The position numbers were made by a program, and so were the translations under genes. DNA of 64,000 bases, taken from contig NZ_CP142860.1 in NCBI RefSeq assembly GCF_036287215.1, forward strand, positions 2,232,001-2,296,000, in the 5' to 3' direction. The notes under the pieces are model-generated. The model was not told the origin of the DNA. It did not search any database and saw nothing but the letters and a program-made list of their open reading frames with translations. This DNA is from Caproiciproducens sp. CPB-2. GTDB lineage: Bacteria > Bacillota > Clostridia > Oscillospirales > Acutalibacteraceae. Each line of letters starts with the position of its first letter. Position 1 is the first letter of the stretch. Below, piece by piece: positions 12,928-28,750 of the stretch.

Positions 12928-13005
12928 AATAGATAAAGAGCCGCACAGGGCGATTATAGGGCGCACTGCCACGCGGCAAAAATAAATAAAAAGGTGGAGA
13001 TGCAG

Positions 13006-13527: not shown

Positions 13528-13572
13528 GATACGGATTTCCAAAATAAACGCAAAAAGTCAGGAGGATTTCAC

Positions 13573-14157
13573 ATGATTCAGAATGAAGTGCTAAACTGCA
13601 TCCACAAGCGCAGAAGCACCCGCCGGTTCCAGGAGCGCCAGATCGAGTCCGAACAGCTGGAAACCCTGCTCGACGCCGCAATCTGGGCGCCCAGCGGAAG
13701 TAACAGCCAGAGCTGGCTGTTTACCGCTATTCAAAATAAAGAAACCCTGCTTCAATTGAACGGGTTGGTAAAAAAAGGCTTCCAGAACTGGGTTCCGGAC
13801 GACAACTATCCCGGAAAAGTCAGGGCCAAGGCCAGATCGGAAAAGGAAAACTTCAATTTTTATTACCACGCACCGACCCTTGTCGTCGCTTCGAACCGGC
13901 CGGATTACGAAAACGCCATGGCGGACTGCGCACTTGCGTTGGAAAACATCTTTTTAGCCGCGCAGTCGATTGGGCTGGGCACCTGCTACATCAATCAGCT
14001 GCACTGGCTGCGCAGTGACCCCGGCGTACGCGAATTTCTGTTCCAACTCGGGATTCCCAGAGAGCACACCATCTGCTCCGCAGCCGCGATCGGGTATATC
14101 GATGTGGAGTCAGCCGCTCTGCCGCGCAAGGAAGGGACCATCCGCATGATCAAATAA
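13573..14157 (+). CDS. Second nitroreductase-family flavoprotein
   Basis: Nitroreductase-fold protein of 194 residues: RRSTRRFQERQIESEQLE at the N-terminus, AAIWAPSGSNSQSWLF, and GLGTCYINQLHWLR near the C-terminal FMN site. It is a different subfamily from the neighbour, with an internal lid region (residues about 65-95). AGGAGG precedes the ATG. Probably co-transcribed with the first nitroreductase. Physiological substrate unknown. Confidence 0.9.
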   Translation: MIQNEVLNCIHKRRSTRRFQERQIESEQLETLLDAAIWAPSGSNSQSWLFTAIQNKETLLQLNGLVKKGFQNWVPDDNYPGKVRAKARSEKENFNFYYHAPTLVVASNRPDYENAMADCALALENIFLAAQSIGLGTCYINQLHWLRSDPGVREFLFQLGIPREHTICSAAAIGYIDVESAALPRKEGTIRMIK

Positions 14158-14169
14158 GGGGCTTCCTTT

Positions 14170-14718
14170 TCATACGCCGGGCGGCAGCTTATCCTCCATC
14201 AGACTGCGCAGATCGATCGTGCCGCCGTCCACCGCAAAGGTGCCGTCTCCGTTTGCATGAAAGGTCCGGCGTTCTTTCCGGTCATAATCCATCCACGCGC
14301 GTACGCCCTCCAGAAGAAAGATACCCTGCGGTTCCAGATAGTCCGTTACGCGGCATTCCAGACAGCCGAGGCATTCCGCGATCAGCGGCGCTTTTACCTG
14401 GGCCGCGGGCAGCGGCGTAAGCCCGAATTTTGCAAACTTATCCGTTTGTTCGCCGGAGCAGTCGCCGATTGCGACCACCTTTTCCGCAAGGTCTACCGTG
14501 GGAACCGCAAGCACACATTCCCCGGTATGCCTGAGCGCCTGAAAGGAATAATTCCACGGGCCCGTTGTCAGAGCAATCTGTGGGGTAAAATCCATCACCA
14601 TGTGCCAGGAGATGGTCATCACATTATTGCGGCCTTTGTCGTGCGTGGTAACCAGCAGCACCGGTCCCGGCTCAATCAGCATAAAGGCCTTTTCAATTGG
14701 AAGTTCCGCCAGAGACAT
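14170..14718 (-). CDS. Flavin reductase-like FMN-binding protein
   Basis: Protein of 182 residues in the flavin reductase-like split-barrel family. The family signature region is PGPVLLVTTHDKGRNNVMTISW, followed by ALTTGPWNYSFQAL and TGECVLAVPTVDLAEKV. Such proteins bind FMN and may reduce it or transfer electrons. It is convergent with the nitroreductase pair, with a 12-base gap, so it is a separate transcript in a redox-flavoured neighbourhood. An oxidoreductase role is probable; the partner is unknown. Confidence 0.85.
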   Translation of the reverse strand: MSLAELPIEKAFMLIEPGPVLLVTTHDKGRNNVMTISWHMVMDFTPQIALTTGPWNYSFQALRHTGECVLAVPTVDLAEKVVAIGDCSGEQTDKFAKFGLTPLPAAQVKAPLIAECLGCLECRVTDYLEPQGIFLLEGVRAWMDYDRKERRTFHANGDGTFAVDGGTIDLRSLMEDKLPPGV

Positions 14719-14810
14719 TTTCCCACCGCCCTTTTTTATTTTTTAATAACCGACTATAAAACTGCTTCAGAAAGCGCCGCTTTTGGGAGCAGTTTTATTT
14801 TGTTCTCTTG

Positions 14811-15371
14811 TTACCATTCCCTCAGCGCGAGCTGCGGAAGGGGAATGAACGGGTCTGGGTTCTCAACATGTTCTCCGATCATTTTTTCCATCCAGATCAT
14901 GTCGTACCAGGTGTGGAATTTATATCCGCACTTGGTAAAATGAGCGACGGTTTTGTATCCCAGATGCTCATGAAAACCGACGCTTTCCGCATTGGAGCAG
15001 GTGATGCAGGCATTGAGATTGATGATATTCTGCTTCTTTAAAATTTCTTCCAGCGCCTGATAAAGCTTTTTGCCGGTTCCTTTCGCTTTGCAGTCCCCTT
15101 TGACATAGACCGTGGTCTCCACCGCCCAATCATAGGCGGCGCGCCCTTTGAACGCACAGGCATAAGCATAGCCGACGACGGAACCGTCCCGCACCGCCGC
15201 CAGGTAAGGATATTTTTTCAGGGTATTGCGGATTCTCTGCGTAAATTCTTCGATGTCCGGCACATCGTATTCAAACGTAATCGCCGTATCCGTGACATAC
15301 GGCGCGTAAATGTCCAGTATCTGCTGCGCGTCCGATTCCGAGGCCATGCGAATGGTGATCGTTTTATCCAT
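14811..15371 (-). CDS. GNAT acetyltransferase, phosphinothricin acetyltransferase-like
   Basis: N-acetyltransferase of 186 residues with the pattern of the Pat/Bar group: IRMASESDAQQILDIYAPYV, TFEYDVPDIEEFTQRI, VGYAYACAFKGRAAYDWAVE and the acetyl-CoA loop VKGDCKAKGTGKKLYQAL. The ATG at 15371 behind GGAAG is preferred over an in-frame start at 15419 that would translate through a leader hairpin. Relatives detoxify amino-acid analogues or are poorly characterised. It stands alone between the flavin protein and the ABC transporter. Confidence 0.87.
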   Translation of the reverse strand: MDKTITIRMASESDAQQILDIYAPYVTDTAITFEYDVPDIEEFTQRIRNTLKKYPYLAAVRDGSVVGYAYACAFKGRAAYDWAVETTVYVKGDCKAKGTGKKLYQALEEILKKQNIINLNACITCSNAESVGFHEHLGYKTVAHFTKCGYKFHTWYDMIWMEKMIGEHVENPDPFIPLPQLALREW

Positions 15372-15388
15372 ATCCGGTTCTTCCTTCC

Positions 15389-15425: not shown

Positions 15426-15501
15426 TCTTTTTTCTTTATTTTACCACGATTTGAGGGAATTGGAAATCAGCATAATCATAATTTTCACAATAAAAGCAAA
15501 C

Positions 15502-15527
15502 ATGCCGCCCCCATAACGGAGCGGCAT
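15502..15527 (-). terminator. Second hairpin downstream of the electron-transfer/ABC operon
   Basis: Arms ATGCCGC / GCGGCAT, with GTTTGCTTTTATTG following on the minus strand. The rest of the 335-base gap (15372-15706) shows no gene. Confidence 0.5.
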
Positions 15528-15643
15528 ATCGCAAGAAACTTTCATCCGGAAGACTTATTACTATCTCTGGGCCCAAATTACTCATTTCTCATAGCACCCC
15601 ACTATTTTACTAAAAAAAGGGCGGATTTGCAAATGTAAATGAT

Positions 15644-15706: not shown

Positions 15707-16462
15707 TCACCCGGCCGGCCGGCTCCACCTGCACAGCAGGTCCGAAAACAGGTCGATGGCGACAAACAGGGCAAAGCCCACAATGGAAATCACGATAATT
15801 CCCGTATACATGTCGATATAATCAATTCTTGACCACGCATCCAGAATGTAATATCCCATGCCGTATTTTGTTCCGTAGCCCTCCACGAAAAACAGGACGG
15901 ATACCGCGGTTCCCAGAGAAACGCGGATGCTGGTGAACAGCTCCGGCAAAATGGCGGGCAGCGTGATATGCCGGATAATCTGCGCGGGGCCCGCTCCCGC
16001 GCTGACGGTTACCAGATAAACGGAGGGGTCGATGTTGCGTACGCTGTCCCTGGCGGCAACAATCACCTGAAAGACGATGATCAGAAAAATAATGGCGACC
16101 TTGGAGCCGTCCCGCATGCCCCAGAGGATCATGGCGACCGGCAGAAAGGCCGTCTTGGGAATGGGGTAACTGAAGTAGATGAGCGGATACAGAACCTTGT
16201 TGGCGCTTTCGGAATACGCCATCAGGACGCCGACCGGGACCCCCACCGCAAGGGAAAGGCCCAGACCGGCCGCGATTCTTTTCAGGCTGGCAAGGATATG
16301 GAGGAAAATATGGTTTGAAAAAGCGTCGCCGAAATTCCGGTAAATGACCGCCGGGTCCGGGATGACCGTCGTGTGCATCAAAAGATACGCCAGAAACCAG
16401 AGGACATTTAAAAGCAGGAAGCCCTGCAAAAACAGCAGGCACTTATTCAGCAGTCTGTTCAA
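15707..16462 (-). CDS. NitT/TauT-type ABC importer, permease
   Basis: Membrane subunit of 251 residues with about six segments, in the SsuC/TauC/ThiX class. The EAA-like docking loop is visible as VTVSAGAGPAQIIRHITLPA and the family signature GVPVGVLMAYSESANKVLYP precedes it. The start overlaps the ATPase gene by 20 bases, so the two are coupled. It is the last gene of a 13-gene leftward cluster. Substrates of the class include sulfonates, nitrate, pyrimidine precursors and aromatic acids; here I infer a naphthoate-type quinone precursor from context only. Confidence 0.9.
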   Translation of the reverse strand: MNRLLNKCLLFLQGFLLLNVLWFLAYLLMHTTVIPDPAVIYRNFGDAFSNHIFLHILASLKRIAAGLGLSLAVGVPVGVLMAYSESANKVLYPLIYFSYPIPKTAFLPVAMILWGMRDGSKVAIIFLIIVFQVIVAARDSVRNIDPSVYLVTVSAGAGPAQIIRHITLPAILPELFTSIRVSLGTAVSVLFFVEGYGTKYGMGYYILDAWSRIDYIDMYTGIIVISIVGFALFVAIDLFSDLLCRWSRPAG

Positions 16463-17246
16463 TATTGCCCCGCCTTTCGCCCTCCGGCCCTAATTTTTCA
16501 TGAAGAATCCGTTTCGCTGTCAGATAATCCACCGACTCCGGGTCGGATTGCCCGAAATAAGGATTTTTCATCGAATACCGGAGCACTCCGCGGCGGTTCC
16601 CCATGACCGCAACGGTATTTCCCAGATACAGCGCCTCCTCAATGCTGTGGGTCACCAGAATCGTGGTCGGCCGGTTCCGCTTCCAGATCCGTAAAAACAG
16701 CTCCCGCGCGTCCTGACGGGTAATCGCGTCCAGCGCGGAAAAAGGCTCGTCCATCAGAAGCAGATCGGGGTTGAAAATAAACGCCCGCGCAAGCGCCGCG
16801 CGCTGGACCTGTCCGCCGCTGAGCTGCGCGGGATACCGATGGAGCAGCCGCGAAACATCCAGCGCGTCGCAGATCCCGCTGATCTCCCGCCTGCGCTCTT
16901 CGGTGACGGTCTCTCTGCGGAGTTTGAGCGGAAGCAGGCAGTTTTCCCCGACCGTTTTCCACGGCAGCAGCCCGCAGTTCTGGGGGATCACCCCGATCTT
17001 ATGCGTTCTGGGATTCAGCGGCCGCTTTTCTCCTCCGGTCACGCTGGATACGCTGCCGCCGTCCAGAGGGAGCATCCCCGCCAGCGCGTTGATCAGCGTC
17101 GACTTGCCGCAGCCGGAAGGCCCGAGTACGGCAAGGACCTCCCCCTCCTCTATTTGCAGGGAGAGTCCTTCAATCACCGGCGTTCTGCCTTTTTTTGTTT
17201 TGTAGCTGACCGTTACCCTGTCGATTACAAGCATCTTGCTCTCCAT
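16443..17246 (-). CDS. NitT/TauT-type ABC importer, ATP-binding subunit
   Basis: ABC ATPase of 267 residues: Walker A GPSGCGKST, Q-loop IPQNCGLLPWKT, signature LSGGQVQR, Walker B LLLMDEPFSALD, His switch VTHSIEEALYLG. The Q-loop proline-tryptophan and the EAL after the switch His are typical of the SsuB/TauB group. It lies 12 bases after the binding protein gene and overlaps the permease gene. Role: energising import of the same ligand as the adjacent lipoprotein. Confidence 0.92.
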   Translation of the reverse strand: MESKMLVIDRVTVSYKTKKGRTPVIEGLSLQIEEGEVLAVLGPSGCGKSTLINALAGMLPLDGGSVSSVTGGEKRPLNPRTHKIGVIPQNCGLLPWKTVGENCLLPLKLRRETVTEERRREISGICDALDVSRLLHRYPAQLSGGQVQRAALARAFIFNPDLLLMDEPFSALDAITRQDARELFLRIWKRNRPTTILVTHSIEEALYLGNTVAVMGNRRGVLRYSMKNPYFGQSDPESVDYLTAKRILHEKLGPEGERRGNIEQTAE

Positions 17247-17258
17247 AAACTTCCGCCG

Positions 17259-18227
17259 TTACGATGCGGAATAAACGTCATACACCATCTGGTCATACTG
17301 CAGGGTCGGCTTGCAGAGGCCCTTTTTGCTTGCCCACTGCACGGCGTTCTCCACTTCCGCTTTGGTGGGAAGCTTGCTGGTACGGAAGGGTTTCACCGTG
17401 ATCTTGCCGATCATTTCTTCCGGGTAGCCCACCGCCTTGATCACGGTTTTTTCATATTTGCGGATATCCGTATGGTTCATATAGTCCACGGCCTCGTTAT
17501 AGGCCTGATACAGCTTGTGGATCGCGGCGGCCTTGCTGTCCAGCGCGGTCTTCGAAAATGCGGAAACCGCCGGGTACAGCCCGAACTGGTTCGCGCTGCC
17601 CAGATAGACGGCGCCGTCGTTCAGCGCCAGAGTGGCGAAGGGCTCCGGCAGCAGGCCGAGGTCGATTTTTTTATTGCGCAGAAGCTCCAGACGGTCCGGA
17701 ATTTTCGGCACTATTTCCTTCACAACGTCGTCGCCGGTCATGTCATTGTGGCTTAAAATATCTTCCAGCGTGTATTCGATCAGCGTTTTTTCGGAGATCG
17801 CGATGCTTTTCCCTTTGATCTGGCTGATGTCCCTGATGCCCGTGTCCTTGCCGGCTACAAGGATGTAGTCCCCGTCGGTAATCCCGGTGATCTTCACGTC
17901 CAGCCCGGCGTTCTGATACATGCAGACCCCGATAAAATCGGTCAGCACGCCGTCCAGTTCCCCCGCCTGCAGGGCGGCGTCCCGGTCCTTCGCGGAGGTA
18001 AAGACCTCCAGATCGAGCCGGAAGCCGTATTTGTCGGCGAGCTTGTTTTCATTGATCAGCACATAGGGAATCACGTCGGAGGACGACATCATCCCGATGC
18101 GGACGACCGGTTTCTCCGTACCCCCGGACACACTGCCCGGCGTACTGCCTGCAGTGTTTTGCGGCGCGCACCCCGCCGTGAATGCCATTAACAAAAGAAC
18201 GAAAACTGCTATGATTTTATTTTTCAT
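17259..18227 (-). CDS. NitT/TauT-type substrate-binding lipoprotein
   Basis: Binding protein of 322 residues with lipoprotein signal (LLLMAFTAGCAPQ, Cys about 20). The mature part resembles the SsuA/NMT1 group: GMMSSSDVIPYVLINENKLA, AALQAGELDGVLTDF, and IKGKSIAISEKTLIEYTLED. A longer frame reaches 18296, but GGAAAGGAAACC before the ATG at 18227 and the signal peptide fix the start. It overlaps ubiX by 11 bases. The MqnA/MqnD enzymes of the futalosine menaquinone route share this fold, but this one is exported and lipidated, so binding rather than catalysis is expected. Ligand unknown. Confidence 0.88.
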   Translation of the reverse strand: MKNKIIAVFVLLLMAFTAGCAPQNTAGSTPGSVSGGTEKPVVRIGMMSSSDVIPYVLINENKLADKYGFRLDLEVFTSAKDRDAALQAGELDGVLTDFIGVCMYQNAGLDVKITGITDGDYILVAGKDTGIRDISQIKGKSIAISEKTLIEYTLEDILSHNDMTGDDVVKEIVPKIPDRLELLRNKKIDLGLLPEPFATLALNDGAVYLGSANQFGLYPAVSAFSKTALDSKAAAIHKLYQAYNEAVDYMNHTDIRKYEKTVIKAVGYPEEMIGKITVKPFRTSKLPTKAEVENAVQWASKKGLCKPTLQYDQMVYDVYSAS

Positions 18228-18804
18228 GGTTTCCTTTCCACCTTTGATAACAATCGTTTTCAATTTCAAGGCTGTCCAGCACCTTGCCCGCGACAAAACC
18301 GACGATTTCGTCCAAAGTCTGCGGATGCCCGTAAAACCCGGGCATGGCGGGCAGGATGGTCACGCCGAGCTCCGAAAGCTCGGCCATTCTTCTGAGGTGA
18401 ACCGTCGACAGCGGCGTTTCCCGGGGGACCAGCACCAGCCTGCGTCTTTCCTTGATCATGACGTCGGCGGCCCGGGTCAGAAGCGTTTTGGTGATGCCGC
18501 AGGCGATTTCGGCCACGGTGGACATGGAGCACGGCAGAATCACCATGGCGTCGCACCGGAAAGAGCCGCTCGCGACCGGGGAAAACATGTTTTCATTGTC
18601 TTCCAAAACGATCTCTGCCCTCCCGCCGCCCCAAAGCCGCGCCTTTTCCTCCAGGACCGCCCCGGTTTCATAGGCCAGCACTTTACGGCCCTGTTCGGAA
18701 GCAATCAGATGGATTTCCAACTCCTGCTGCGACAGCGCTTCCATCACGCGAAGAAAATACGCGCTTCCGCTCGCCCCCGTGATTCCCACGATGATTCTCT
18801 TCAT
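18217..18804 (-). CDS. ubiX: UbiX-type flavin prenyltransferase (MqnM-like)
   Basis: Makes prenylated FMN, the cofactor of UbiD decarboxylases, from reduced FMN and dimethylallyl phosphate. The 195-residue length and the motif IVGITGASGSAYFLRVMEAL at the N-terminus are characteristic, as are VILPCSMSTVAEIACGITKTL and LVPRETPLSTVHLRRMAEL. It sits in the expected context, downstream of ubiD and a UbiA prenyltransferase; this trio corresponds to MqnM/MqnL/MqnP of the late futalosine menaquinone route. It overlaps the following binding-protein gene, which ties the importer to this pathway. Confidence 0.95.
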   Translation of the reverse strand: MKRIIVGITGASGSAYFLRVMEALSQQELEIHLIASEQGRKVLAYETGAVLEEKARLWGGGRAEIVLEDNENMFSPVASGSFRCDAMVILPCSMSTVAEIACGITKTLLTRAADVMIKERRRLVLVPRETPLSTVHLRRMAELSELGVTILPAMPGFYGHPQTLDEIVGFVAGKVLDSLEIENDCYQRWKGNHEK

Positions 18805-18815
18805 GTTATCCCTTC

Positions 18816-19685
18816 CTAAACAAACGCATCCAGAAGCCCGAACACCAGCAGGACGATGCTCACGAGCTGGTTCACGCTGTAGGACGCAATATTGACGTGG
18901 GTCAGATTGCCGGGCGACACCATCCGGTACTCCGCGGTAAACAGGACGGCGATGACCACCACACCCACATAATAGATCACGCCGAACTGCGGCACAAGAA
19001 GCCCGATGACGACGAGGCAGATCAGGGTGACGATGTGAAACAGCATGGCGATGCGCAGGGCGTTTTTCACGCCGAAGGCAACGGGGATGGAATGCAGCCC
19101 GTTCTGCCTGTCAAAGTCGTAATCCTGCGAGCCGTAGATAATGTCGAACCCGGCGACCCACAGGGTATTGGCGGCGCCCATAACGAGCGGGACCAGTGCG
19201 GGCTTTCCCGTGACGGCAAGCCACGCGCCGACCGGCGCGCAGGCGCAGGTAACGCCGAGGATCAGATGGCACAGAAAAGTGAACCGTTTGCAGTAGGAGT
19301 AAATAATCAGCAAAAACAAAGCGACCGGGGACAGGGCAAAGCAGACCCAATTCAGCCGGTACGCTCCGTACAGCATAACGAGGAAACAGACCGCGGTAAA
19401 AACAACGACCTCGCCTTTTTTCATTTCTCCTTTTGGAATCTGGCGGCCGGCCGTGCGCGGATTTTTCGCGTCGATCTTCGCGTCGATCACGCGGTTGACG
19501 GCGTTCGCGCCCGTGCGCGCCCCCAGAAAGCAGACCACGATCCAAAAGACGGTGGAAGCTCCGGGAAGGCCGTTCGCGGCCAGCACCATGGAAACCAGCG
19601 CAAAGCTGAAAGAAAAAATCGTGTGCGAAAACATGACCAGCTTGCCGTATGATTGAATCTTATCGATGATTTTAGTCAATCCCAT
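18816..19685 (-). CDS. mqnP: UbiA-family prenyltransferase, MqnP-like
   Basis: Integral membrane aromatic prenyltransferase, 289 residues with about eight to nine membrane helices. Both Asp-rich motifs are intact: NRVIDAKIDAKNPRTAGRQI and DIIYGSQDYDFDRQNGLHSI. Together with FSHTIFSFSFALVSMVLAA and YSYCKRFTFLCHLILGV this is the pattern I know from the clade used for 1,4-dihydroxy-6-naphthoate or 4-hydroxybenzoate. With UbiD and UbiX adjacent, the likely reaction is prenylation of a naphthoate before decarboxylation. It overlaps ubiD by 14 bases. A second UbiA protein (24587-25489) is encoded in the same cluster. Confidence 0.9.
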   Translation of the reverse strand: MGLTKIIDKIQSYGKLVMFSHTIFSFSFALVSMVLAANGLPGASTVFWIVVCFLGARTGANAVNRVIDAKIDAKNPRTAGRQIPKGEMKKGEVVVFTAVCFLVMLYGAYRLNWVCFALSPVALFLLIIYSYCKRFTFLCHLILGVTCACAPVGAWLAVTGKPALVPLVMGAANTLWVAGFDIIYGSQDYDFDRQNGLHSIPVAFGVKNALRIAMLFHIVTLICLVVIGLLVPQFGVIYYVGVVVIAVLFTAEYRMVSPGNLTHVNIASYSVNQLVSIVLLVFGLLDAFV

Positions 19686-21372
19686 ATTCGTTCCACCTTT
19701 TGTCGACCTGCCGTTTCATCGCGTCCGTCATGACGATGTCATCCGGCCAGGGGCGGGTCAGGCCCTCCTGCTTCCATTTTTTCGTAGCGTCCACCCCGAT
19801 CTTGAAATCGATGACCGCAATGTCCCTTTTGGCGTCTATATTATTGAACACCTTCCACATAACGGTGGAAAGGTCCCTCGTATCCACATCCTCGTCCACC
19901 ACGATCACAAACTTGTCCGGGTGGTTCCAGAGGTAATTCTCGACCAGCTCCCTGCCCTTTCCCGGGCGGTCCTTGCGGACGGGCAGGATCCTGAAAGTAT
20001 CGGTAACCTCGTCGTTGAAGCCCTTCGCGGGGCTGGCGGCGTCGATTCCCAGCCGGCACCCGTACAGCGCGCGGTTGGAGGAATGATCCAGCGCGTCCAG
20101 CGGGCCTTCCGAAAAAAGCAGGCTCTGCGGCCCGCTGACATTTTTCAGCACCGCGTCCCGCACGGCGGCCAGGTTCTGAACGTCCACGGATTCGTCCACG
20201 GCGACGATCAGCTTCGTATACATCATCTGCCCCATGCCCCAGACCGCGTTCATCACTTTGCGCGCGCAGCCGGGGTATTTGTTTTTGATCGAAACAATGG
20301 CGCAGTTGTGAAAAACCCCTTCCAGCGGCAGGTTCAGGTCCGTTAGCTCCGGAATCTGCATCCGCAGCAGCGGGAGGAAAATACGCTCCGTCGCCTTTGC
20401 CATGTAGCAATCCTCCATCGGCGGCTTGCCCACAACCGTGGCGGGATAGACGGCTTCCCTTTTATGGGTGATGCAGGTCACATGAAATTTCGGATAATAA
20501 TCCGCAAGGGAATAATAGCCCGTATGGTCGCCGAACGGCCCTTCCAGCACCGGTTCTTCCGCGGGGTCGACGTAACCCTCCAGCACAAATTCGGCATCCG
20601 CGGGAACATAGATGTTATTCGTAATGCATTTGACCATTTTGACCCTTTTCCTGCGCAGCCATCCGGCCAGCATCATTTCATCCAGCATTTTCGGCAGCGG
20701 CGCGGTGGCGGCGTAGGTAACGGCGGGGTCGCACCCCAGCGCGACCGAAACCGGCATCCTCAGGTTCTGCTCCGCGTAACCGCGGTAGATTTCGGAGCCG
20801 TCCTTATGCTTGTGCCAGTGCATCGCGGTGGTGGTGCTGTCAAGGACCTGAAGGCGGTACATTCCGGCGTTCTGCCGCTTCGTTTTCCGGTCACGCGTAA
20901 AGACGATGGGAAGGGTAATAAACGGTCCCGCGTCCTGCGGCCAGCACTTCAAAACGGGCAGGGAGGACAAATCCACGAACCGTTCCACCACCTGCTGGCA
21001 TTCTCCCCGAAACAGGCTTTTTCGCGGAAACGCGCTCAGCAGGCGGAACAGATGGGAAACACTTTTGATCAGCCGGGGAACGGACAGGCGGTTGACGATA
21101 TCCAGATACTTCTGGATATCGTCCGCAATGTCGTCCAGCTTTTCCACGCCCAAAGCCATGCTCATTCTCTGATAGCTGCCCATCGCGTTCATCAGGACGG
21201 GATACCTTGACCCGTTTACCTCCTGGAACAGCAGGGCGGGGCCGTTGGCTTTGGAAACGCGGTCGGTGATCTCCGTAATTTCCAGCTCGGGCGACACGGG
21301 CGCGTCGATCTTCTTCAGTTCCCCGCTCGTTTCCAGTTTTCTGATAAAATCCTGAAGGCCTTTGTATGCCAT
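19672..21372 (-). CDS. UbiD-family decarboxylase (MqnL-like)
   Basis: Prenyl-FMN-dependent decarboxylase, 566 residues from the ATG at 21372, which follows AATGGGGAAT; the frame opens earlier (21480) but that would overlap apbE. Family landmarks are PALLFQEVNGSRYPVLMNAM, the VPADAEFVLEGYVDP region and the EGPFGDHTGYY motif. Probable reaction: removal of the ring carboxylate from a prenylated naphthoate, giving a demethylmenaquinone-type quinol. The adjacent UbiX makes its cofactor. A general aromatic decarboxylase is possible, but the UbiA neighbour favours the quinone pathway. Confidence 0.9.
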   Translation of the reverse strand: MAYKGLQDFIRKLETSGELKKIDAPVSPELEITEITDRVSKANGPALLFQEVNGSRYPVLMNAMGSYQRMSMALGVEKLDDIADDIQKYLDIVNRLSVPRLIKSVSHLFRLLSAFPRKSLFRGECQQVVERFVDLSSLPVLKCWPQDAGPFITLPIVFTRDRKTKRQNAGMYRLQVLDSTTTAMHWHKHKDGSEIYRGYAEQNLRMPVSVALGCDPAVTYAATAPLPKMLDEMMLAGWLRRKRVKMVKCITNNIYVPADAEFVLEGYVDPAEEPVLEGPFGDHTGYYSLADYYPKFHVTCITHKREAVYPATVVGKPPMEDCYMAKATERIFLPLLRMQIPELTDLNLPLEGVFHNCAIVSIKNKYPGCARKVMNAVWGMGQMMYTKLIVAVDESVDVQNLAAVRDAVLKNVSGPQSLLFSEGPLDALDHSSNRALYGCRLGIDAASPAKGFNDEVTDTFRILPVRKDRPGKGRELVENYLWNHPDKFVIVVDEDVDTRDLSTVMWKVFNNIDAKRDIAVIDFKIGVDATKKWKQEGLTRPWPDDIVMTDAMKRQVDKRWNEYGID

Positions 21373-21416
21373 CCGCGCATTCCCCATTTGCTCCATACTT
21401 TTTGAATCCGTGAAAT

Positions 21417-22460
21417 TCAGCTCTTGATATATTTCTGAAAATGGTCGCTGTACTTGATCTCGTTGTCGGGAAGCACCCAAAGCGCTTCCGTATCCGGCAG
21501 CGTCCTGATATAAGCCAGCCCCTGCTCGTAAGGGACGTTGAAAATCAGCTTGCAGTAGATATCCGCCATACCGGAATCCGGCGTGATAATGGTGACGGCT
21601 TTAAAATAAGTAGACGGCATCAGGGTTTTCGGGTCTATGATATGGTGGTAGGTCTTGCCGTCCACCGTGTAATACCGCTCGTAAATCCCGCTGGTCACAA
21701 CGGATTCATCCTTGATATTGATCGTGCAGAGGGACTTCTTCTCGCTTTCCTTATCCGGGTTCTGAATCCCGATATTCCAATCCTCCTGATTGACGCCCTT
21801 GTCGCCGATGGCCCGCACATTGCCGCCCACACTGAGAAGTGCGGAGTTGTAGCCGTGTTCCATCGCGATTTTCGCCACCTGCTCCGTCGCGTAGCCTTTT
21901 GCGATTCCGCCGACGTCCAGACTCATCTCCGGGTCTTCTAAATATACCGTGGAAGCTTTTTCATCGATGACGACCTTGCTGATATCCGTATGCTTCATAG
22001 CTTCTTTCAGGTCGGCCATTGGGGGCAGGGCGGCGTTTTCCGGGTCGTCTATCCCCGCTTCCCTGTACTGGTGCCATATTTTCAGCACCGAGCCCAGCGC
22101 GATATTGAAAGCGGAGCTGTTGTCCGCGCTTTCCTTTTTGCCCAGCAGGAGCATATCGATAATCTTCTTATCTACCTTGACCGGCTTCTTCCCCGCGTTG
22201 TCATTGATCGTTTTGATGTTGCTGACGCCGGGGTAATCATTATAAATATCGTAAAGTTCGTGGTAAACCTTTAGATTATTATAAATCAAATTGGAAAGGT
22301 TTGTAAACTCCTCTTTGGTTTCCGTATAAGCCACAATTTCCGTCATGGTGTCGAAAAGCTGTAAAAATTGCGCTTCATAGCGTGTTTTCTTACTGGTATT
22401 GCAGGCCGGAAGCTGAACGATCAGCGCCATGGCGAGAATCGCCGAAATCAGTTTTTTCAC
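21417..22460 (-). CDS. apbE: ApbE-type FAD:protein FMN transferase (FmnB-like)
   Basis: Extracytoplasmic enzyme that attaches FMN covalently to a Thr/Ser of target flavoproteins, using FAD. A lipoprotein signal (MALIVQLPACNTSKKTR) places it outside the membrane; 347 residues is normal. Family motifs seen are LDVGGIAKGYATEQVA, LLSVGGNVRAIGDKG and YHHIIDPKTLMP. It starts with GTG at 22460 behind GAGGTGG. The obvious substrate is the two-domain flavoprotein encoded just upstream. In Listeria FLEET the ApbE homologue FmnB has this role. An internal terminator separates it from the upstream gene. Confidence 0.93.
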   Translation of the reverse strand: MKKLISAILAMALIVQLPACNTSKKTRYEAQFLQLFDTMTEIVAYTETKEEFTNLSNLIYNNLKVYHELYDIYNDYPGVSNIKTINDNAGKKPVKVDKKIIDMLLLGKKESADNSSAFNIALGSVLKIWHQYREAGIDDPENAALPPMADLKEAMKHTDISKVVIDEKASTVYLEDPEMSLDVGGIAKGYATEQVAKIAMEHGYNSALLSVGGNVRAIGDKGVNQEDWNIGIQNPDKESEKKSLCTINIKDESVVTSGIYERYYTVDGKTYHHIIDPKTLMPSTYFKAVTIITPDSGMADIYCKLIFNVPYEQGLAYIRTLPDTEALWVLPDNEIKYSDHFQKYIKS

Positions 22461-22474
22461 CCGTTTTCCACCTC

Positions 22475-22508
22475 AAAAAATGGAGAGGTAGAAATGAATC
22501 TACCTCTC
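22475..22508 (-). terminator. Internal terminator/attenuator between the PplA-like gene and apbE
   Basis: Perfect ten-base arms GAGAGGTAGA / TCTACCTCTC with a six-base loop, followed on the minus strand by CATTTTTTGAGG. It lies inside the operon and probably lowers transcription of apbE and the genes after it. Confidence 0.8.
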
Positions 22509-22538
22509 GCGAATCACTTTGTGAATTGAGCTTTCCCG

Positions 22539-23603
22539 TTATTTTGCTCCGGAAACAGCCTTATCGATAACCTTGATGAAATCGCCGACATGCACGGTAA
22601 CGGATGCGGTCAGTTCCTTATCGGTCGCCTTGCCTTCGGAGTCAACGGCAATCCCCTTGACTTCGTCCAGCGTTTTGCCGACTACATACTTCGCAAAGGC
22701 AGCGGCTTCTTCGTTCCACTCTTTGCCGATCTTGGAAGCCTTCTTCATGCCGTAAGCGTCGCCCAGTTCGTTCTTCGTCTTCTGCTCCGCTTTCAGGTCG
22801 GACGTAATCTTGCCCGCTTTGGAGAAGTTCACGTTGGTCTGGGAAGCGTCGATGATGCAGCTGGTGATTTTGCCGTCGGCGCCGGTGGTGGTAACGGTGT
22901 AGTAGGAATAAGCCTGCGCAAGGCCGTCTTCGGCACCGGCATCCTTGGAGCCGGAAATGCTGGTCTCAATGCCGAGGCCCAGCTTGTCGTCCGCTTTTGC
23001 GCCGTTATCGGCTGCATTGGCGACTGCCTTTTCAACGGCGGCGATAAAGTCGCCGACATGGATGGTAACGGATGCGGTCAGTTCCTTATCGGTTGCTTTG
23101 CCCTCGCTGTCGACGGCAATGCCCTTGACCTCGTCCGCTGTTTTGCCGACTACATAGCTTGCAAACGCGTCGGCCTGCTCGTTCCATTCCTTCTTGATGC
23201 CGGAAGCTTTGCCAAGGCCGTACTCTGTGCCGAGTTCCTGCTTGGACTTCACGACGGTGTCAAGCGGGGTCAGAACTTTTCCGGCGTCGGAGAATTCGAC
23301 TTTGCTCTGGACTGCGTCGATCAGGCATTTTGCGATTTTGCCGTCCTGGTCGACTGCGACGGCCACAACAGTGGAATCCGCCTCTGCAAGGCCCTTTCCG
23401 TCTTTGACATCCGTGGATTTCGCGATAGAGGTAATGACGGCAAGACCTGTTTTCCATGTACCGGACGCCGGGGTCGATTCAGCGGCCTGTGAGCTCACGG
23501 CGGGCTGAGAAGCCGCGGAGCTGGCCGTGGTGGTTGTGCCGCATCCCGCAAAGCTGACTGCGGTAATCGCTGCGGCTAAAAATGCTGCTAGTGCTTTTTT
23601 CAT
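22539..23603 (-). CDS. pplA: PplA-like two-domain FMN-binding lipoprotein
   Basis: Surface flavoprotein of 354 residues and likely terminal electron shuttle of flavin-based extracellular electron transfer. A lipoprotein signal (AVSFAGCGTTTT) is followed by two near-identical domains (about 50-195 and 210-354). Each contains EWNE..A.FA.YVVGKT, then VKGIAVDSEGKATDKEL and TASVT(I/V)HVGDF. The TASVT stretch is my candidate for the FMN attachment site made by ApbE. GGAGG precedes the ATG at 23603. In Listeria, PplA likewise carries two FMNylated domains. The repeats suggest recent internal duplication. Confidence 0.88.
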   Translation of the reverse strand: MKKALAAFLAAAITAVSFAGCGTTTTASSAASQPAVSSQAAESTPASGTWKTGLAVITSIAKSTDVKDGKGLAEADSTVVAVAVDQDGKIAKCLIDAVQSKVEFSDAGKVLTPLDTVVKSKQELGTEYGLGKASGIKKEWNEQADAFASYVVGKTADEVKGIAVDSEGKATDKELTASVTIHVGDFIAAVEKAVANAADNGAKADDKLGLGIETSISGSKDAGAEDGLAQAYSYYTVTTTGADGKITSCIIDASQTNVNFSKAGKITSDLKAEQKTKNELGDAYGMKKASKIGKEWNEEAAAFAKYVVGKTLDEVKGIAVDSEGKATDKELTASVTVHVGDFIKVIDKAVSGAK

Positions 23604-23624
23604 ATTTTCCTCCAAAATTTCAAT

Positions 23625-24170
23625 TTATTTACTGAAGCCGATCTTTTTTAAAGCCGGCAGAGTAACCTTGAGCAAGGCGGATGTCGCCGCGCCCGCTATC
23701 ACGCCCGAAAGTAACAGCACGGGAGCATACGCCCACAGAAACAGATTCGTATATAAAAGGGAAACCGCAGCCATCTGCCCGATATTGTGAAAGACCGCGC
23801 CCAGAATACTAATCATCAGGTAAGAGATTTTTTCCTTGAAAAGAAATAGAAACAGGATCATGCCCAATACGGAAAGAAGCCCGCCGCAAAAGCTCAGCAG
23901 CGCCGCAACCGCGCCTCTGGTCAGAAACACAAAGACGGATTTCAGCACCGCCAGAAGCAGCGCTTCCTTTTTTTCAACGAAAAAAAGGGAATACATCACC
24001 ACAATATTGGACAGCCCGAGCTTGACGCCGGGAACCGGAACGGGAATCTGTAGCTGGTTCTCGACAACGGACAGCACAAGGACCACCGCAAAAAGAAGGC
24101 CCGTCAGAACCATCCGTCTGATCCTCAGGGAGTTGATCTCACGTTTCGTCAGGTTTTTGTCTTCAGCCAT
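23625..24170 (-). CDS. eetB: EetB-like membrane protein (Gx transporter family)
   Basis: Membrane protein of 181 residues with five to six hydrophobic segments, in the family annotated Gx transporter or heptaprenyl diphosphate synthase component I. The diagnostic region is VPVPGVKLGLSNIVVMYSLF. In the Listeria FLEET locus the EetB protein of this family works with EetA to move electrons from membrane quinol to the outside. It follows eetA by 12 bases and precedes the PplA-like gene by 21 bases; GAGGAAAAC precedes its ATG. A direct electron-transfer role is established only genetically in related systems. Confidence 0.9.
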   Translation of the reverse strand: MAEDKNLTKREINSLRIRRMVLTGLLFAVVLVLSVVENQLQIPVPVPGVKLGLSNIVVMYSLFFVEKKEALLLAVLKSVFVFLTRGAVAALLSFCGGLLSVLGMILFLFLFKEKISYLMISILGAVFHNIGQMAAVSLLYTNLFLWAYAPVLLLSGVIAGAATSALLKVTLPALKKIGFSK

Positions 24171-24182
24171 TCTTTGTTTTCC

Positions 24183-24572
24183 TCATCCAATCACAGCATC
24201 CAGATCGTCCGAACTGCGCTGATCCTTCGCCACTATTTTCATTACGATGCCGTTCGGAAGGCAGGCCGCGCTCTCACCGATCATGTGGAGCCTGCCCGCG
24301 TGGATACAGACTTTATCCGGGCAATTGGATTCCTCAAAGCAAATGCTGCCATCTTTAAAAACGTGAAAAATCACATTCTTATTCTGCTCAATTGAAAAGC
24401 GCTTATCCACTCCCGCCGTCAGATCGACCGTGTCCACCAGCTCCGATTTGTAATAGATCTCGGCTTTCGCCGCCTTCTTCCCAACGATGGACTGATAGGA
24501 AAACCACGCGGCCGCACAGACCACAAGCGCAACGGCAAGAATCACAAGATCGGTTTTTTTGACAAATTTCAT
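24183..24572 (-). CDS. eetA: EetA-like NusG domain II membrane protein
   Basis: A 129-residue protein with one N-terminal membrane anchor (LVILAVALVVCAAAWFSY) and an extracytoplasmic NusG domain II-like fold. The diagnostic motif is ESNCPDKVCIHAGRL followed by AACLPNGIVMKIV; the three conserved Cys may matter for redox or metal binding. EetA pairs with EetB in flavin-based extracellular electron transfer. GGCGGAG precedes the ATG. It is located between dmkA and eetB, the same order as in known FLEET loci. Confidence 0.92.
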   Translation of the reverse strand: MKFVKKTDLVILAVALVVCAAAWFSYQSIVGKKAAKAEIYYKSELVDTVDLTAGVDKRFSIEQNKNVIFHVFKDGSICFEESNCPDKVCIHAGRLHMIGESAACLPNGIVMKIVAKDQRSSDDLDAVIG

Positions 24573-24586
24573 CGATAAACTCCGCC

Positions 24587-25489
24587 TCAGTTAAAAAAAC
24601 CGCCGATAAAAATCAGCAGGCTGTTGGTACCCACAAGGATGACGTAATTTTGGACCGAAAGGACAAACGTTTCCTCTTTCTGCTGTTTCTTTTTGAACCG
24701 GTTAACATTGTTCCTGATGGGAACGATCGTCAACAGGGATAACAGACAGACAGAAGGCAGGATTTTCAAAAACACCATCCCGACAACCGAGACATACGAA
24801 ACGGAATACAGCCCCGCGAATACGGACAGGGCCTTTTCGCCAAGATAATACGGGAGCGTGTATCGTTTTGCCCCAATGTCTTTTTCCAGATCGCACAGGT
24901 TGTTGGCGAGCATAATGTTTGCGGTCGCGCAGGCCGGCGTTACCGAAAGCAGCGCGAGCGAAAAAAGCGGAAAAAGATTCAAATCCAGATGAAGCGTTTG
25001 AAAATCAAATGCAAAAGTCAGGAAGGTTCCCGCGGGCATATTGATGTACAGTAACAGGAAAGGGATGAACAGCCCGTAAAACACGCCGGAAAAAAGCTCT
25101 CCCAGCGGCTGACGGGAAAGAGGGATCGGGCCCCACGAATAGAGCACCCCGAACAGAAAGCACAGCCCGCCCAAAAGCAGCACGACCGCGTCCGTCAGAA
25201 AGGCCAAAGCCAGCCCAAGAGCCGTACTGACCAAAAGCAGAAGAAAAATGGTTGCCTTCGCCGTCGAGCGGCGGAAAGGCAGGAGCTCCCCGGCCGTTTT
25301 GGCCCCCTCATAATTATTGATTGCCGTAGCGGTTAAATCAAAGAGAAGCATGGAACCGAAAAAGAGCAGGGTCAATGTCCAGTTTACCGGCTGCTTTTTG
25401 TAAGAAAGATACGCAAGCGCCATCAAAAAGGCAAAGACGCTGGTGATTTTTGTCCGCAGCTCCACAAAATTCAAAAACCTTTTCAGCAT
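24587..25489 (-). CDS. dmkA: DmkA-like UbiA-family prenyltransferase
   Basis: Membrane prenyltransferase of 300 residues, MenA/DmkA type, expected to join a polyprenyl diphosphate to dihydroxynaphthoate to make demethylmenaquinone dedicated to electron export. The second Asp-rich motif is clear (NNLCDLEKDIGAKRYTLP). The first is unusual: TAINNYEGAKTAGE has Glu where MenA normally has Asp. About eight membrane helices are visible. It lies between dmkB and eetA. It is not close to the other UbiA protein of the cluster, so the two may accept different naphthoates. Confidence 0.88.
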   Translation of the reverse strand: MLKRFLNFVELRTKITSVFAFLMALAYLSYKKQPVNWTLTLLFFGSMLLFDLTATAINNYEGAKTAGELLPFRRSTAKATIFLLLLVSTALGLALAFLTDAVVLLLGGLCFLFGVLYSWGPIPLSRQPLGELFSGVFYGLFIPFLLLYINMPAGTFLTFAFDFQTLHLDLNLFPLFSLALLSVTPACATANIMLANNLCDLEKDIGAKRYTLPYYLGEKALSVFAGLYSVSYVSVVGMVFLKILPSVCLLSLLTIVPIRNNVNRFKKKQQKEETFVLSVQNYVILVGTNSLLIFIGGFFN

Positions 25490-25494
25490 CGTTT

Positions 25495-26475
25495 TTATAA
25501 CCCGCGGTAAGCTTTATCTAAAATAGACTGAAGCCTTTCTTTTTTCGTTTCGGAAGCGCCCAGCTCCCGGATCATTTTAAAGGCCTTGTCGTAATACTTT
25601 TTTGAAACTGTCTTTGTGTAGCTCAGGCCTCCCGTTTCCGCCACGGCGGCATTGATTTCCTCCCTGGAAATCTTTTCCGCCCTCGCCTTTTCCTTGAAAG
25701 CGGCGCGCGTCTGAAACGCATAGATCAGCGGAAGGGTGATGACGCCCTGCTCGTAGTCGGACTGGACCGGTTTTTTGGCCAGCTGCCGAGGCGCTTCAAA
25801 GTCAATGCAGTCGTCGGTAAGCTGAAAGATCATGCCGATCAGGTGGCCAAGGCGCATGTATTTCTCCACCGCATCCTTCTCCTCCTCGCAGAGGATCGCC
25901 CCCGCGTAAAAGGAAGCCTCAAAGAGGGCCGCGGTTTTCCCGGAGATAATCCTGAGATAGCCCGCAACGGAAAGGTCCAGATTGTAATTGTTCTGGTTCT
26001 GCCTTAACTCACCCAGACAGATTCTGGTCATGTAATCGGGAATATTGAAATCCAGATAATCCCTCTTGTTCGGTATGGAAGCAGCCTGTTCAAGAGCCAG
26101 ACAGAAAAGATAGTCCCCGCAGATAACGGCGGTGCGCTTTCCGTATTTTTTCTGGAGAGTGACAAAGCCCCTGCGGAGATCGGCGTTGTCGATGACGTCG
26201 TCATGCACCAGCGTGGCCAGATGCAGAACCTCTATCGCGGAAGCGAGCTTCACCGCGTTGGGATGAAGCAGCCCTTCCCTGTTTTCGGCACAGGCAAGCA
26301 AAGCGCGGGAACGAAGGAACTTGCCCCAGGAAAGAGTCAGGTGCTGCGTATAATTGCGGATGGGTTTAGGAGAGGCGGACAGCAATCTGCCCACCTCCTG
26401 TTTTACCTGTTCCGCCGCGTCGTCAAAAGTAAGAAATTCAACTGCGGCATTTTCTGCAGTGTGTTCATTAATCAT
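25495..26475 (-). CDS. dmkB: DmkB-like polyprenyl diphosphate synthase
   Basis: Trans-prenyltransferase of 326 residues that elongates isopentenyl units to the quinone side chain. Both Asp-rich motifs are intact: LVHDDVIDNADLRRG (DDxxD) and FQLTDDCIDFEAPRQ (DDxxD). Also seen are VTLQKKYGKRTAVICGDYLF and the Gln-rich helix. It overlaps ndh2 by 8 bases and is followed 5 bases later by dmkA, its partner. FLEET loci encode exactly this enzyme pair. The chain length is not predictable with confidence. Confidence 0.92.
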   Translation of the reverse strand: MINEHTAENAAVEFLTFDDAAEQVKQEVGRLLSASPKPIRNYTQHLTLSWGKFLRSRALLACAENREGLLHPNAVKLASAIEVLHLATLVHDDVIDNADLRRGFVTLQKKYGKRTAVICGDYLFCLALEQAASIPNKRDYLDFNIPDYMTRICLGELRQNQNNYNLDLSVAGYLRIISGKTAALFEASFYAGAILCEEEKDAVEKYMRLGHLIGMIFQLTDDCIDFEAPRQLAKKPVQSDYEQGVITLPLIYAFQTRAAFKEKARAEKISREEINAAVAETGGLSYTKTVSKKYYDKAFKMIRELGASETKKERLQSILDKAYRGL

Positions 26476-28546
26476 TGTAAATATATAACTTTCTTGCGAA
26501 TTTCACATTTTTCCAGTGCTTTTTCAGATACGGCATCGCGTAATAGTCCAGTCCAAAGGCCCTGCCTCCGCCGATCAGGACCGCGATTGCCGCGAAAATC
26601 ATCCAGAAGGTGTTGAGGTACAGGCCCGTGGTGCAGACGAACATGACCTGAAGAACCAGCGAAAGCCCGGAGGACAGCGTGGTAAACAGGCCGCCGATCA
26701 GCGACAGGCCGATCAGGATTTCCGCAACCACAATAAAGATCTGCATAAAAAGCTGTACCTTGGGGTTGGGGAGAATAAACGTACTGACAAACCAGTTCAT
26801 CAGCGGCACGTCAAGCTTGAACGCCAGATCGTTCAGCGTGGATTTCGCCAGCTCCTTGCCGCTTACAAAGATCACCTGGAACCAGCCGAGGAAACTGAAA
26901 TTCATCAAAACCTGCCCGACGGCCGCAGCGGCGGCACCCGCCGCCTGACCGGCCGCGTCGGCGGCGCCGGACGTGGCGGAGGAAATCGCGTCTACCGCAA
27001 CGGAAGCCGCTCCGGCTACCGCGTTTACTGCATTCGCCGCACCGGTGGCCGCAGTGGTGGTCGCGCTGCTTGTCGCGTCCGGTGTGGCGCCGCCGGCGGC
27101 CGCACCGCTCAGGATGGTGTTGTACCATGTGTTTGCGCCGCCGAAGAAACCGGTCAGCTGGGGAGAATTGAACCAGCCTTCCACAATCTTCATAACGCCT
27201 TCATACAGCCAGACCATACCCAGCCAGATCCGGAGAGCGACGAGCAAAAAGCTCGGGGTTTTATTGGAGAAGTGGCCGCCGACAAAGCTTCTGTCGTGGC
27301 GCACCGTAAAGAACTCATGCTTCATATAGCTGAAAATCTTGTTCCAGCCAAGGACCTGAATGAAATAGATGATATTGATAAAATGCTTCGCGAACATGGC
27401 GAGGAAGGACGGAAGGCTGAACATGTGGTTCGGCAGGCCGACATGGGCGACGCCGTAACGGCCGCCCACACAAACCATGACCCCGTGGAACTTCGGTTTG
27501 TACGCTTCCATTTCGCCCGTGCCGGTAAGGGCGGCGATGATATTTTTCGCGGCGACGCCGGAGCTTTGCTCACAGTTTTCGACCAGCTGCGGAACCGGCA
27601 TCTTTTCGCCTTCCGGCGTATAAAGGATATCGTCGCCGACGACATAGACGTTCGGATTATCCACGGAACGCAGATAAGCGTCGGTCTGGATTCTTCCGCG
27701 GCGGGCCGACTGGAGCACCTTTGCCGCCTCGCCCGCAATTTCGGCGCTTTCGATTCCCGCCGTCCAGATCACGGTGCCGGCAGTTTCGCGGGTTACCGTC
27801 TCGCCGTTCTTGATTTCAATATAGTCTTTGCCAATGCTGACGACACCGGAGTTCAGCTTGAGGCCAACGCCCATTTTGGAAAGGCGTCTTTCTATTTTGT
27901 CGGAAAGTTTGTCAGGTAAAATCGGCACGATGCGCGGAAGGACATCCACGTCGTAAATCGTGACGAGGGAGCGGTCGATTTCGTATTTGTCGCAGAGGAC
28001 CGGCACATACTCGGCCAGCTCTCCCACCATTTCAATTCCCGTAAAGCCCGCGCCCACGACATAAAACGTAAGCAGCTTTTTCTTTTCTTCCAGATCGGTC
28101 TCGCGGGCGGCCTTTCTGAAGAACTCGTGGATATGATCCTTCAGATGCACGGCGTCGTCGTACGACCACAGCGTGTGGGCGTATTCCTCCGCTCCCGGGA
28201 TGCCGAAAAAGGAGGGTTTGGAACCGGCCGCAAGCACAAGGTAATCGTAGCCGTAGCTTTCGCCGGTTCCGGTTACGGACTTCTGCTCAAAATCAATGGA
28301 CTGAATCGTATCCAGCCTGACGTTTACCTTTCTTCCGGCAAACACCCTGCTGAGGCTGATCTTGATGCTGTCTTCATCCACCCGTCCGGCAGCCACCTCG
28401 TGCAGTTCGGTCAGCATGGTGTGGAACGGATTTTTATCAATAACGGTAATGCTGACGTCCTCTTGCTTTTTCAGCCGTTTGGCTAATTTTTTGGCGGTCA
28501 GCAATCCCGAATAACCCGCACCGATAATCACGATTTTTTTCTCCAT
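26468..28546 (-). CDS. ndh2: Type II NADH dehydrogenase with C-terminal membrane domain (Ndh2)
   Basis: Entry point of the electron-export chain: oxidises NADH and reduces membrane quinone without proton pumping. The 692 residues comprise an FAD/NADH oxidoreductase (VIIGAGYSGLLTAKKLA at the N-terminus; YVVGAGFTGIEMVGELA about 165; VIWTAGIESAEIAGE; NVYVVGDDI) and, from about 430, a DoxX-like membrane region with several helices. The added membrane domain is typical of FLEET Ndh2. Unusually, a stretch of about 65 residues (about 477-540) inside the membrane region is almost pure Ala, Gly, Thr, Ser. AGAGGATTG precedes the ATG. First gene of the 13-gene cluster. Confidence 0.93.
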   Translation of the reverse strand: MEKKIVIIGAGYSGLLTAKKLAKRLKKQEDVSITVIDKNPFHTMLTELHEVAAGRVDEDSIKISLSRVFAGRKVNVRLDTIQSIDFEQKSVTGTGESYGYDYLVLAAGSKPSFFGIPGAEEYAHTLWSYDDAVHLKDHIHEFFRKAARETDLEEKKKLLTFYVVGAGFTGIEMVGELAEYVPVLCDKYEIDRSLVTIYDVDVLPRIVPILPDKLSDKIERRLSKMGVGLKLNSGVVSIGKDYIEIKNGETVTRETAGTVIWTAGIESAEIAGEAAKVLQSARRGRIQTDAYLRSVDNPNVYVVGDDILYTPEGEKMPVPQLVENCEQSSGVAAKNIIAALTGTGEMEAYKPKFHGVMVCVGGRYGVAHVGLPNHMFSLPSFLAMFAKHFINIIYFIQVLGWNKIFSYMKHEFFTVRHDRSFVGGHFSNKTPSFLLVALRIWLGMVWLYEGVMKIVEGWFNSPQLTGFFGGANTWYNTILSGAAAGGATPDATSSATTTAATGAANAVNAVAGAASVAVDAISSATSGAADAAGQAAGAAAAAVGQVLMNFSFLGWFQVIFVSGKELAKSTLNDLAFKLDVPLMNWFVSTFILPNPKVQLFMQIFIVVAEILIGLSLIGGLFTTLSSGLSLVLQVMFVCTTGLYLNTFWMIFAAIAVLIGGGRAFGLDYYAMPYLKKHWKNVKFARKLYIYND

Positions 28547-28722: not shown

Positions 28723-28750
28723 ATTATAACAAGCAATTTCAATAAGTCAA
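28723..28750 (-). promoter_or_regulatory. Promoter of the electron-transfer operon
   Basis: TTGACT (28745-28750), 16-base spacer and TATAAT (28723-28728) on the minus strand, giving a leader of about 170 bases before ndh2. The rest of the 501-base gap to gerAB is AT-rich and shows no gene. Confidence 0.7.

Follow-up and report, generated by a model that had tools for sequence, protein, structure and literature searches.

The gene cluster at positions 15707–28546, minus strand, of the 64,000-nucleotide stretch of Caproiciproducens sp. CPB-2 analyzed here (the window) consists of thirteen genes in the order Ndh2, DmkB, DmkA, EetA, EetB, PplA-like, ApbE, UbiD, UbiA/MqnP-like, UbiX, binding lipoprotein, ATPase, and permease (Table 1). 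The cluster is probably a flavin-based extracellular electron transfer (FLEET) operon that includes a dedicated module for quinone salvage, in which an ATP-binding cassette (ABC) importer takes up 1,4-dihydroxy-6-naphthoate. A sequence-only reading of the stretch had proposed that quinone finishing and precursor uptake are coupled to electron export, and this proposal is backed by the gene neighborhoods of relatives and by the co-occurrence of the genes.

Absence of the upstream quinone pathway

The quinone genes found in the host genome (3.45 Mb, one contig, 98.4% complete; same genus as Caproiciproducens faecalis) are futalosine-type finishing genes only. Absence was judged with one family model per step, namely TIGR03699 for MqnC, PF02621 for MqnA/MqnD, and TIGR01929 for MenB. 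Neither MqnC nor MenB exceeded its curated cut-off in any of the 11 genomes of the genus, and MenG was not found in the host genome by a family-model search. The possibility that either the futalosine or the classical pathway is encoded in full at another place in the genome was rejected, because MqnC and MenB stay below the cut-offs and the PF02621 match (G000:C1:1698488, 32 bits) is not MqnA/MqnD but a phosphonate/NMT1-type binding lipoprotein with a permease gene next to it. As MqnC, MenB, genuine MqnA/MqnD, and MenG are missing, the organism should not make menaquinone. No internal source of substrate for UbiD, MqnP, and UbiX was therefore found, and the uptake of a precursor becomes the central point.

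Conservation of the block among UbiD loci

The scan for UbiD gave 427 relatives, the best 80 of which were kept as named loci, 3 of them from this genus. The block of UbiD, MqnP, UbiX, the solute-binding protein (SBP), ATPase, and permease recurs, whole or in part, in Clostridia, Sphaerochaeta, and Enterococcus. MqnP adjoins UbiD at 78 of the 80 loci; at least one importer gene lies within 9 kb of UbiD at 66, one of which (L048) rests on a possible paralogue, and the complete SBP-ATPase-permease set is near UbiD at 50. A FLEET-type Ndh2 lies within 11 kb of UbiD at 33 loci, which indicates that the combination of UbiD/UbiA/UbiX/ABC genes with FLEET is not confined to this genome, and at least two of Ndh2, Eet, and DmkB are near UbiD at 34. 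The long loci L029–L031, L034, L036–L039, and L041 carry the block in a fetched stretch that is free of FLEET genes, as do the UbiD-importer loci L052, L058, L060, L093, and L104. The block is physically tied to FLEET in some lineages, not in all.

The four families MqnC, MenB, PF02621, and MenG were searched in 57 genome handles, consisting of 50 of the 80 named genomes and 7 G handles (56 distinct genomes, as G002 and G426 look identical), where the metagenome-assembled genomes (MAGs) are incomplete. MqnC was above the cut-off in 5 of the 57, and these 5 were also the ones with PF02621 at E ≤ 1e-12. MenB was above the cut-off in one, Oceanirhabdus, whose locus also holds DmkA, and MenG in six only, the five MqnC-positive ones and Oceanirhabdus (Fisher p 2.8e-8). 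All 43 of the 50 named genomes with one or more importer genes near UbiD were MqnC-negative, and 5 of the remaining 7 were MqnC-positive (Fisher p 9.9e-6); that is, an importer gene stands at the UbiD locus in 43 of the 45 named genomes without MqnC and in none of the 5 with it. Among the 14 importer-less named loci, six are at contig ends (L035, L040, L053, L088, L097, L099) and five are MqnC-positive (L081, L087, L089, L105, L106).

Co-occurrence across the class

Co-occurrence was determined in 391 genomes of the class of the window, Clostridia (judged from the named relatives), where the best five candidates per genome were scored with thresholds of E ≤ 1e-120 for UbiD, at least 350 bits for SBP, and E ≤ 1e-100 for Ndh2. 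UbiD was present in 22 genomes. SBP reached its threshold in 19 of these 22 and in 0 of the 369 UbiD-negative genomes (Fisher p 1.6e-29); relaxing the threshold to E ≤ 1e-60 gave counts of 20 and 9, respectively. The 19 genomes represent 10 families, and in 18 of them SBP lies on the UbiD contig at a distance of up to 5 kb. Three UbiD-positive genomes stay under 350 bits: G589, whose 290-bit relative is on a different contig, and G657 and G756, which correspond by their coordinates to L077 and L053, where the contig end truncates SBP. FLEET-type Ndh2 was found in 83 genomes, comprising 20 of the 22 UbiD-positive and 63 of the 369 UbiD-negative ones (Fisher p 7.6e-13).

A lower-scoring branch of SBP (215–277 bits) was also observed in nine UbiD-negative genomes (G495, G510, G528, G537, G639, G688, G694, G702, G807), all of which except G510 and G639 carry FLEET-type Ndh2. 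This branch possibly comprises importers for a different quinone precursor.

Predicted salvage route

In the futalosine pathway, 1,4-dihydroxy-6-naphthoate is the final soluble intermediate. Since MqnC and MqnA/MqnD are absent, the earliest futalosine intermediate usable by the organism is the MqnD product, so the uptake of 1,4-dihydroxy-6-naphthoate is predicted; the import of an earlier intermediate is excluded by the same missing enzymes. The isomer 1,4-dihydroxy-2-naphthoate loses its carboxyl group during prenylation by MenA/DmkA, whereas a carboxyl group away from the prenylation site needs a separate decarboxylase. In the 6-naphthoate, the carboxyl group lies elsewhere than at the site of prenylation, so the two-step route of UbiA- and UbiD-type enzymes fits the 6-isomer, not the 2-isomer. 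The product of UbiX is prenylated flavin mononucleotide (FMN), the cofactor of UbiD.

From this gene content, the SBP, ATPase, and permease would import 1,4-dihydroxy-6-naphthoate given off by futalosine-pathway neighbors, MqnP would join to it the prenyl chain made by DmkB, and UbiD, with prenylated FMN from UbiX, would take off the carboxyl group. The predicted end product is demethylmenaquinone, since no MenG was found. Ndh2 would reduce demethylmenaquinone with NADH, and the electrons would exit via EetA/EetB and the PplA-like lipoprotein flavinylated by ApbE. DmkA would offer a second inlet, for 1,4-dihydroxy-2-naphthoate from classical-pathway neighbors, and its retention suggests such an inlet in most of the genus.

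On balance, we also lean towards a broader view, in which a widespread, undescribed ABC importer for 1,4-dihydroxy-6-naphthoate feeds menaquinone-less anaerobes, largely for extracellular electron transfer (EET), and Caproiciproducens, with DmkA, has a two-inlet operon for the precursors of both menaquinone routes. If this is true, such anaerobes subsist on a precursor that leaks from bacteria with the futalosine pathway. The locus hints at cross-feeding from such producers to Clostridia, Sphaerochaeta, and Enterococcus, and supplies a specific three-gene importer candidate together with its predicted ligand and, as a readout, demethylmenaquinone and electron export.

Points against the assignment and alternative explanations

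Several observations weigh against the salvage of 1,4-dihydroxy-6-naphthoate. The substrate itself is deduced from gene context, and the fold of the SBP binds diverse ligands, namely sulfonates, taurine, nitrate, bicarbonate, pyrimidines, and pyrroloquinoline quinone (PQQ). The sequence-only reading had likened UbiD/UbiA/UbiX to MqnL/MqnP/MqnM; UbiD is indeed above the MqnL cut-off, but the MqnP-like protein scores 298 bits with the MqnP_DT model, under its cut-off of 430, as do the MqnP proteins of two MqnC-positive genomes (L105, 333 bits; L106, 273 bits). The importer genes are missing in two MAG loci without MqnC (L079, L100) and in L083, which is outside the MqnC search sample. L049, L064, L065, L067, and L102 have SBP and no recognized ATPase or permease nearby, and L063, L069, L091, L094, and L101 have the ATPase and permease and no SBP above the threshold in the fetched stretch. 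In Brevibacillus (L106), MqnC, UbiD-MqnP, and FLEET genes occur with no importer, so salvage does not follow from the presence of the finishing genes alone. Locus L115 of G694 combines FLEET genes and MqnP with an ATPase, a permease, and an SBP-type protein (285 bits) but lacks UbiD, and the G694 genome gave no UbiD match at E ≤ 1e-120. As for the statistics, the 350-bit cut was chosen post hoc, in the score gap from 353 to 290, the profile for Ndh2 derives from Ndh2 genes located beside UbiD blocks and may favor such genomes, and the Fisher values ignore shared ancestry. The absence of each pathway step rests on one family model, and the MqnC-positive G474 also has a MenB-like match of 310 bits, under the cut-off.

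The presence of DmkA in the cluster raises the alternative that the importer takes 1,4-dihydroxy-2-naphthoate for DmkA, and that UbiD, MqnP, and UbiX are neighbors with a different role; moreover, 1,4-dihydroxy-2-naphthoate, when supplied, sustains the EET of a FLEET bacterium (PMC10746273). This explanation is unlikely, as DmkA is missing at 75 of the 80 named UbiD loci, whereas importer genes are near 66, and SBP of at least 350 bits never occurs without UbiD in the 391 genomes. DmkA stands at five named loci, 3 of this genus and 2 of Oceanirhabdus. In the genus, UbiD occurs in 5 of the 11 genomes and DmkA in 4 of the 5 clusters; the cluster lacking it, that of G004 (L023), has the full importer.

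The occurrence of DmkA was also determined in 38 of the 63 UbiD-negative genomes with FLEET-type Ndh2 (L108–L145, taken roughly by descending score with some skipped, several cut by contig ends). It exceeded 290 bits in 10 of these 38 loci, and it stands at 5 of the 34 named UbiD loci that hold two or more FLEET genes. A role of the block as a substitute for DmkA in FLEET loci is thus unsupported. Most FLEET loci have no nearby DmkA either way.

Alternatively, the importer may meet a different need of electron export, such as flavin or metal supply, or be an unrelated nutrient importer riding along. The predicted fold of the SBP (predicted local distance difference test score of 91.3) has SsuA, CmpA, PqqT, THI5, and MqnD as neighbors in the PDB, and the nearest folds include proteins that bind sulfonate, taurine, and nitrate/bicarbonate, which is in favor of such a role; the score with TIGR01728 (SsuA, aliphatic sulfonate binding) is 90 bits, under the cut-off of 163.5. 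This role is also improbable, as the importer is absent beside UbiD in the five MqnC-positive genomes and the block stays with UbiD even where the fetched stretch has no FLEET gene, which indicates that the tie is to quinone finishing.

The tree of MqnP was built from 79 rows (MqnP rows above 350 bits, DmkA rows, and E. coli UbiA), and its bootstrap is unsettled. The MqnC-positive L105 and L089 group with the importer-less L083 and L100, and the MqnC-positive Brevibacillus L106 sits within importer-bearing rows. The branch leading to E. coli UbiA has a length of 6.5 and arises at an unresolved fork; the tree therefore fails to tell MqnP and UbiA apart. The pairwise-distance correlations of the block proteins (0.59–0.91, 47 loci), having no control family, support no conclusion. 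We give little credence to the remaining alternative, that the importer carries another aromatic acid (e.g., 4-hydroxybenzoate) from which UbiA/UbiX/UbiD yield a prenylated phenol or benzoquinone: these enzymes are of the ubiquinone type too, E. coli UbiA is not separated in the tree, and a U32-family protein related to UbiU/TrhP lies near the block at 18 loci, but UbiD of the window scores 628 bits as menaquinone decarboxylase versus 394 as 4-hydroxy-3-polyprenylbenzoate decarboxylase (cut-off 788), the same contrast is seen in L043 (672 versus 430), L065 (652 versus 419), and L085 (658 versus 432 bits), and the cluster has no U32 gene.

Genes and sites of the cluster

As shown in Table 1, the thirteen genes are on the same strand, and neighboring genes either overlap by up to about 20 bases or are separated by at most 78 bases, so the order and short gaps described in the sequence-only reading are borne out, and the genes are presumably co-transcribed. 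The stem between the PplA-like gene and ApbE could reduce the expression of the downstream half of the cluster.

Table 1. Features of the cluster and its flanks in window coordinates.
Feature	Coordinates	Strand	Length and evidence
Ndh2, type II NADH dehydrogenase, FLEET type	26468..28546	-	692 amino acids (aa); hydrophobic C-terminal part; Pfam Pyr_redox_2
DmkB, polyprenyl diphosphate synthase	25495..26475	-	326 aa; Pfam polyprenyl_synt, 180 bits
DmkA, MenA-like prenyltransferase	24587..25489	-	300 aa; NCBIfam 1,4-dihydroxy-2-naphthoate prenyltransferase, 240 bits (cut-off 289)
EetA, NusG domain II protein	24183..24572	-	129 aa; Pfam NusG_II
EetB, energy-coupling factor (ECF)-like membrane subunit	23625..24170	-	181 aa; Pfam Hpre_diP_synt_I
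PplA-like lipoprotein	22539..23603	-	354 aa; two internal repeats, DKELTASVT in each
ApbE/FmnB flavin transferase	21417..22460	-	347 aa; Pfam ApbE, 228 bits
UbiD/MqnL decarboxylase	19672..21393	-	start probably 21372 or 21393; TIGR03701, 628.2 bits (curated cut-off 495.9)
MqnP-like UbiA prenyltransferase	18816..19685	-	289 aa; TIGR01475, 302 bits (cut-off 180.8)
UbiX flavin prenyltransferase	18217..18804	-	195 aa; NF004685, 224 bits (cut-off 188); TIGR00421, 204 bits (cut-off 108.9)
Solute-binding lipoprotein (SBP) of the importer	17259..18239	-	326 aa; Pfam NMT1_2/NlpA
ABC ATPase	16443..17246	-	267 aa; Pfam ABC_tran
ABC permease	15707..16462	-	251 aa; Pfam BPD_transp_1
Promoter-like site 5' of Ndh2	28723..28750	-	TTGACT-16-TATAAT, 11/12; consensus match alone
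Terminator-like stem 3' of permease	15499..15530	-	13 pairs, 177 bases past permease; consensus match alone
Terminator-like stem between PplA-like and ApbE	22483..22508	-	consensus match alone

Ndh2 with a hydrophobic extension, DmkB, EetA, EetB, and ApbE/FmnB, which a FLEET locus requires, are all clustered here. The first seven genes had been read as FLEET; six of the names have family support, that of DmkA below its cut-off, but the PplA-like name has none. Pfam/NCBIfam searches back all the other gene names of the cluster and gave no significant family match for the PplA-like protein, which is lipoprotein-like and whose repeated motif was set by eye beside DAxSGxS of lipoproteins from related loci.

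The C-terminal part of Ndh2 matches Pfam DoxD slightly under the cut-off. Residues ~490–526 of Ndh2 (window 26969–27079) form an Ala/Ser/Thr-rich insert with DATSSATTT and DAISSATSG, which resemble ApbE targets. What we take to be the ApbE-target pattern is matched by 11 of the 22 members of the Ndh2 alignment, which includes 21 of the 29 listed Ndh2 from named loci, although the low complexity raises chance matches. The SBP alignment covers 44 of the 56 listed SBPs, with over-long or near-identical ones omitted.

In G008 (L005, L008, L024), UbiD and Ndh2 are each split in two frames, with one stop in UbiD, owing to decay or assembly error. L064, L065, L067, and L102, three Enterococcus loci and one locus of a Streptococcaceae MAG, show the arrangement UbiD-MqnP-SBP with no recognized ATPase or permease adjoining. 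The U32-family protein, which is under both the TrhP and UbiU cut-offs in the one example scanned, occurs together with a class III aminotransferase near the UbiD block at 18 of the 80 loci, including the MqnC-positive Brevibacillus (L043, L044, L045, L052, L054, L057, L058, L060, L064, L065, L067, L070, L071, L072, L074, L076, L078, L106); the two perhaps add a quinone-modifying step. A response regulator and a histidine kinase share the locus of the block in L051, L059, L064–L066, L070–L072, L074, L076, L090, and L094. In the one example of each scanned, the regulator is of the sigma-54 type and the kinase has Cache and PAS domains, and the pair is a candidate precursor sensor. Directly downstream of the cluster (window 12477–15374) are genes for an HxlR regulator, two nitroreductases, a flavin-reductase-like protein, and an ArsN1-like acetyltransferase (below cut-off).

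Comparison with known systems

Among the matches listed from the open-licence PMC literature, none ties FLEET to UbiD/MqnP or names a dihydroxynaphthoate importer; mqnL and mqnP are each mentioned once in PMC5738691, and two papers call quinone-precursor importers undescribed.

The cluster shares Ndh2, DmkB, EetA, EetB, and ApbE/FmnB with the eight-protein FLEET of Listeria monocytogenes (PMC8906456), and it has a MenA-like gene at the position expected for DmkA and a gene for a PplA-like lipoprotein; PplA of Listeria bears FMN on two threonines. It differs in the addition of UbiD-MqnP-UbiX and the ABC importer, in a genome without MenB, and in that the eighth protein, FmnA, is not among the thirteen genes; the search for FmnA covered the cluster only. 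With the futalosine pathway, whose predicted last steps are MqnP/MqnL/MqnM (Ravcheev and Thiele 2016, PMC4746308), it has the UbiA-, UbiD-, and UbiX-family finishing enzymes in common, whereas MqnC, MqnA/MqnD, and MenG are missing and an importer stands in place of the upstream steps. PqqT of Methylobacterium extorquens (PDB 9b1u/9ooz), a periplasmic PQQ-binding protein, has low sequence identity to the SBP, and its ligand is a finished cofactor, whereas the predicted ligand of the SBP is the precursor of a lipid quinone.

The EET system of Lactiplantibacillus plantarum (PMC10746273) is likewise a FLEET without quinone synthesis, which needs external naphthoate. The same paper names demethylmenaquinone as the EET carrier of Listeria and Enterococcus and expects pathways of naphthoate uptake still to be identified. 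L. plantarum uses 1,4-dihydroxy-2-naphthoate, whereas the cluster of Caproiciproducens sp. CPB-2 encodes an importer together with enzymes of the 6-naphthoate type.

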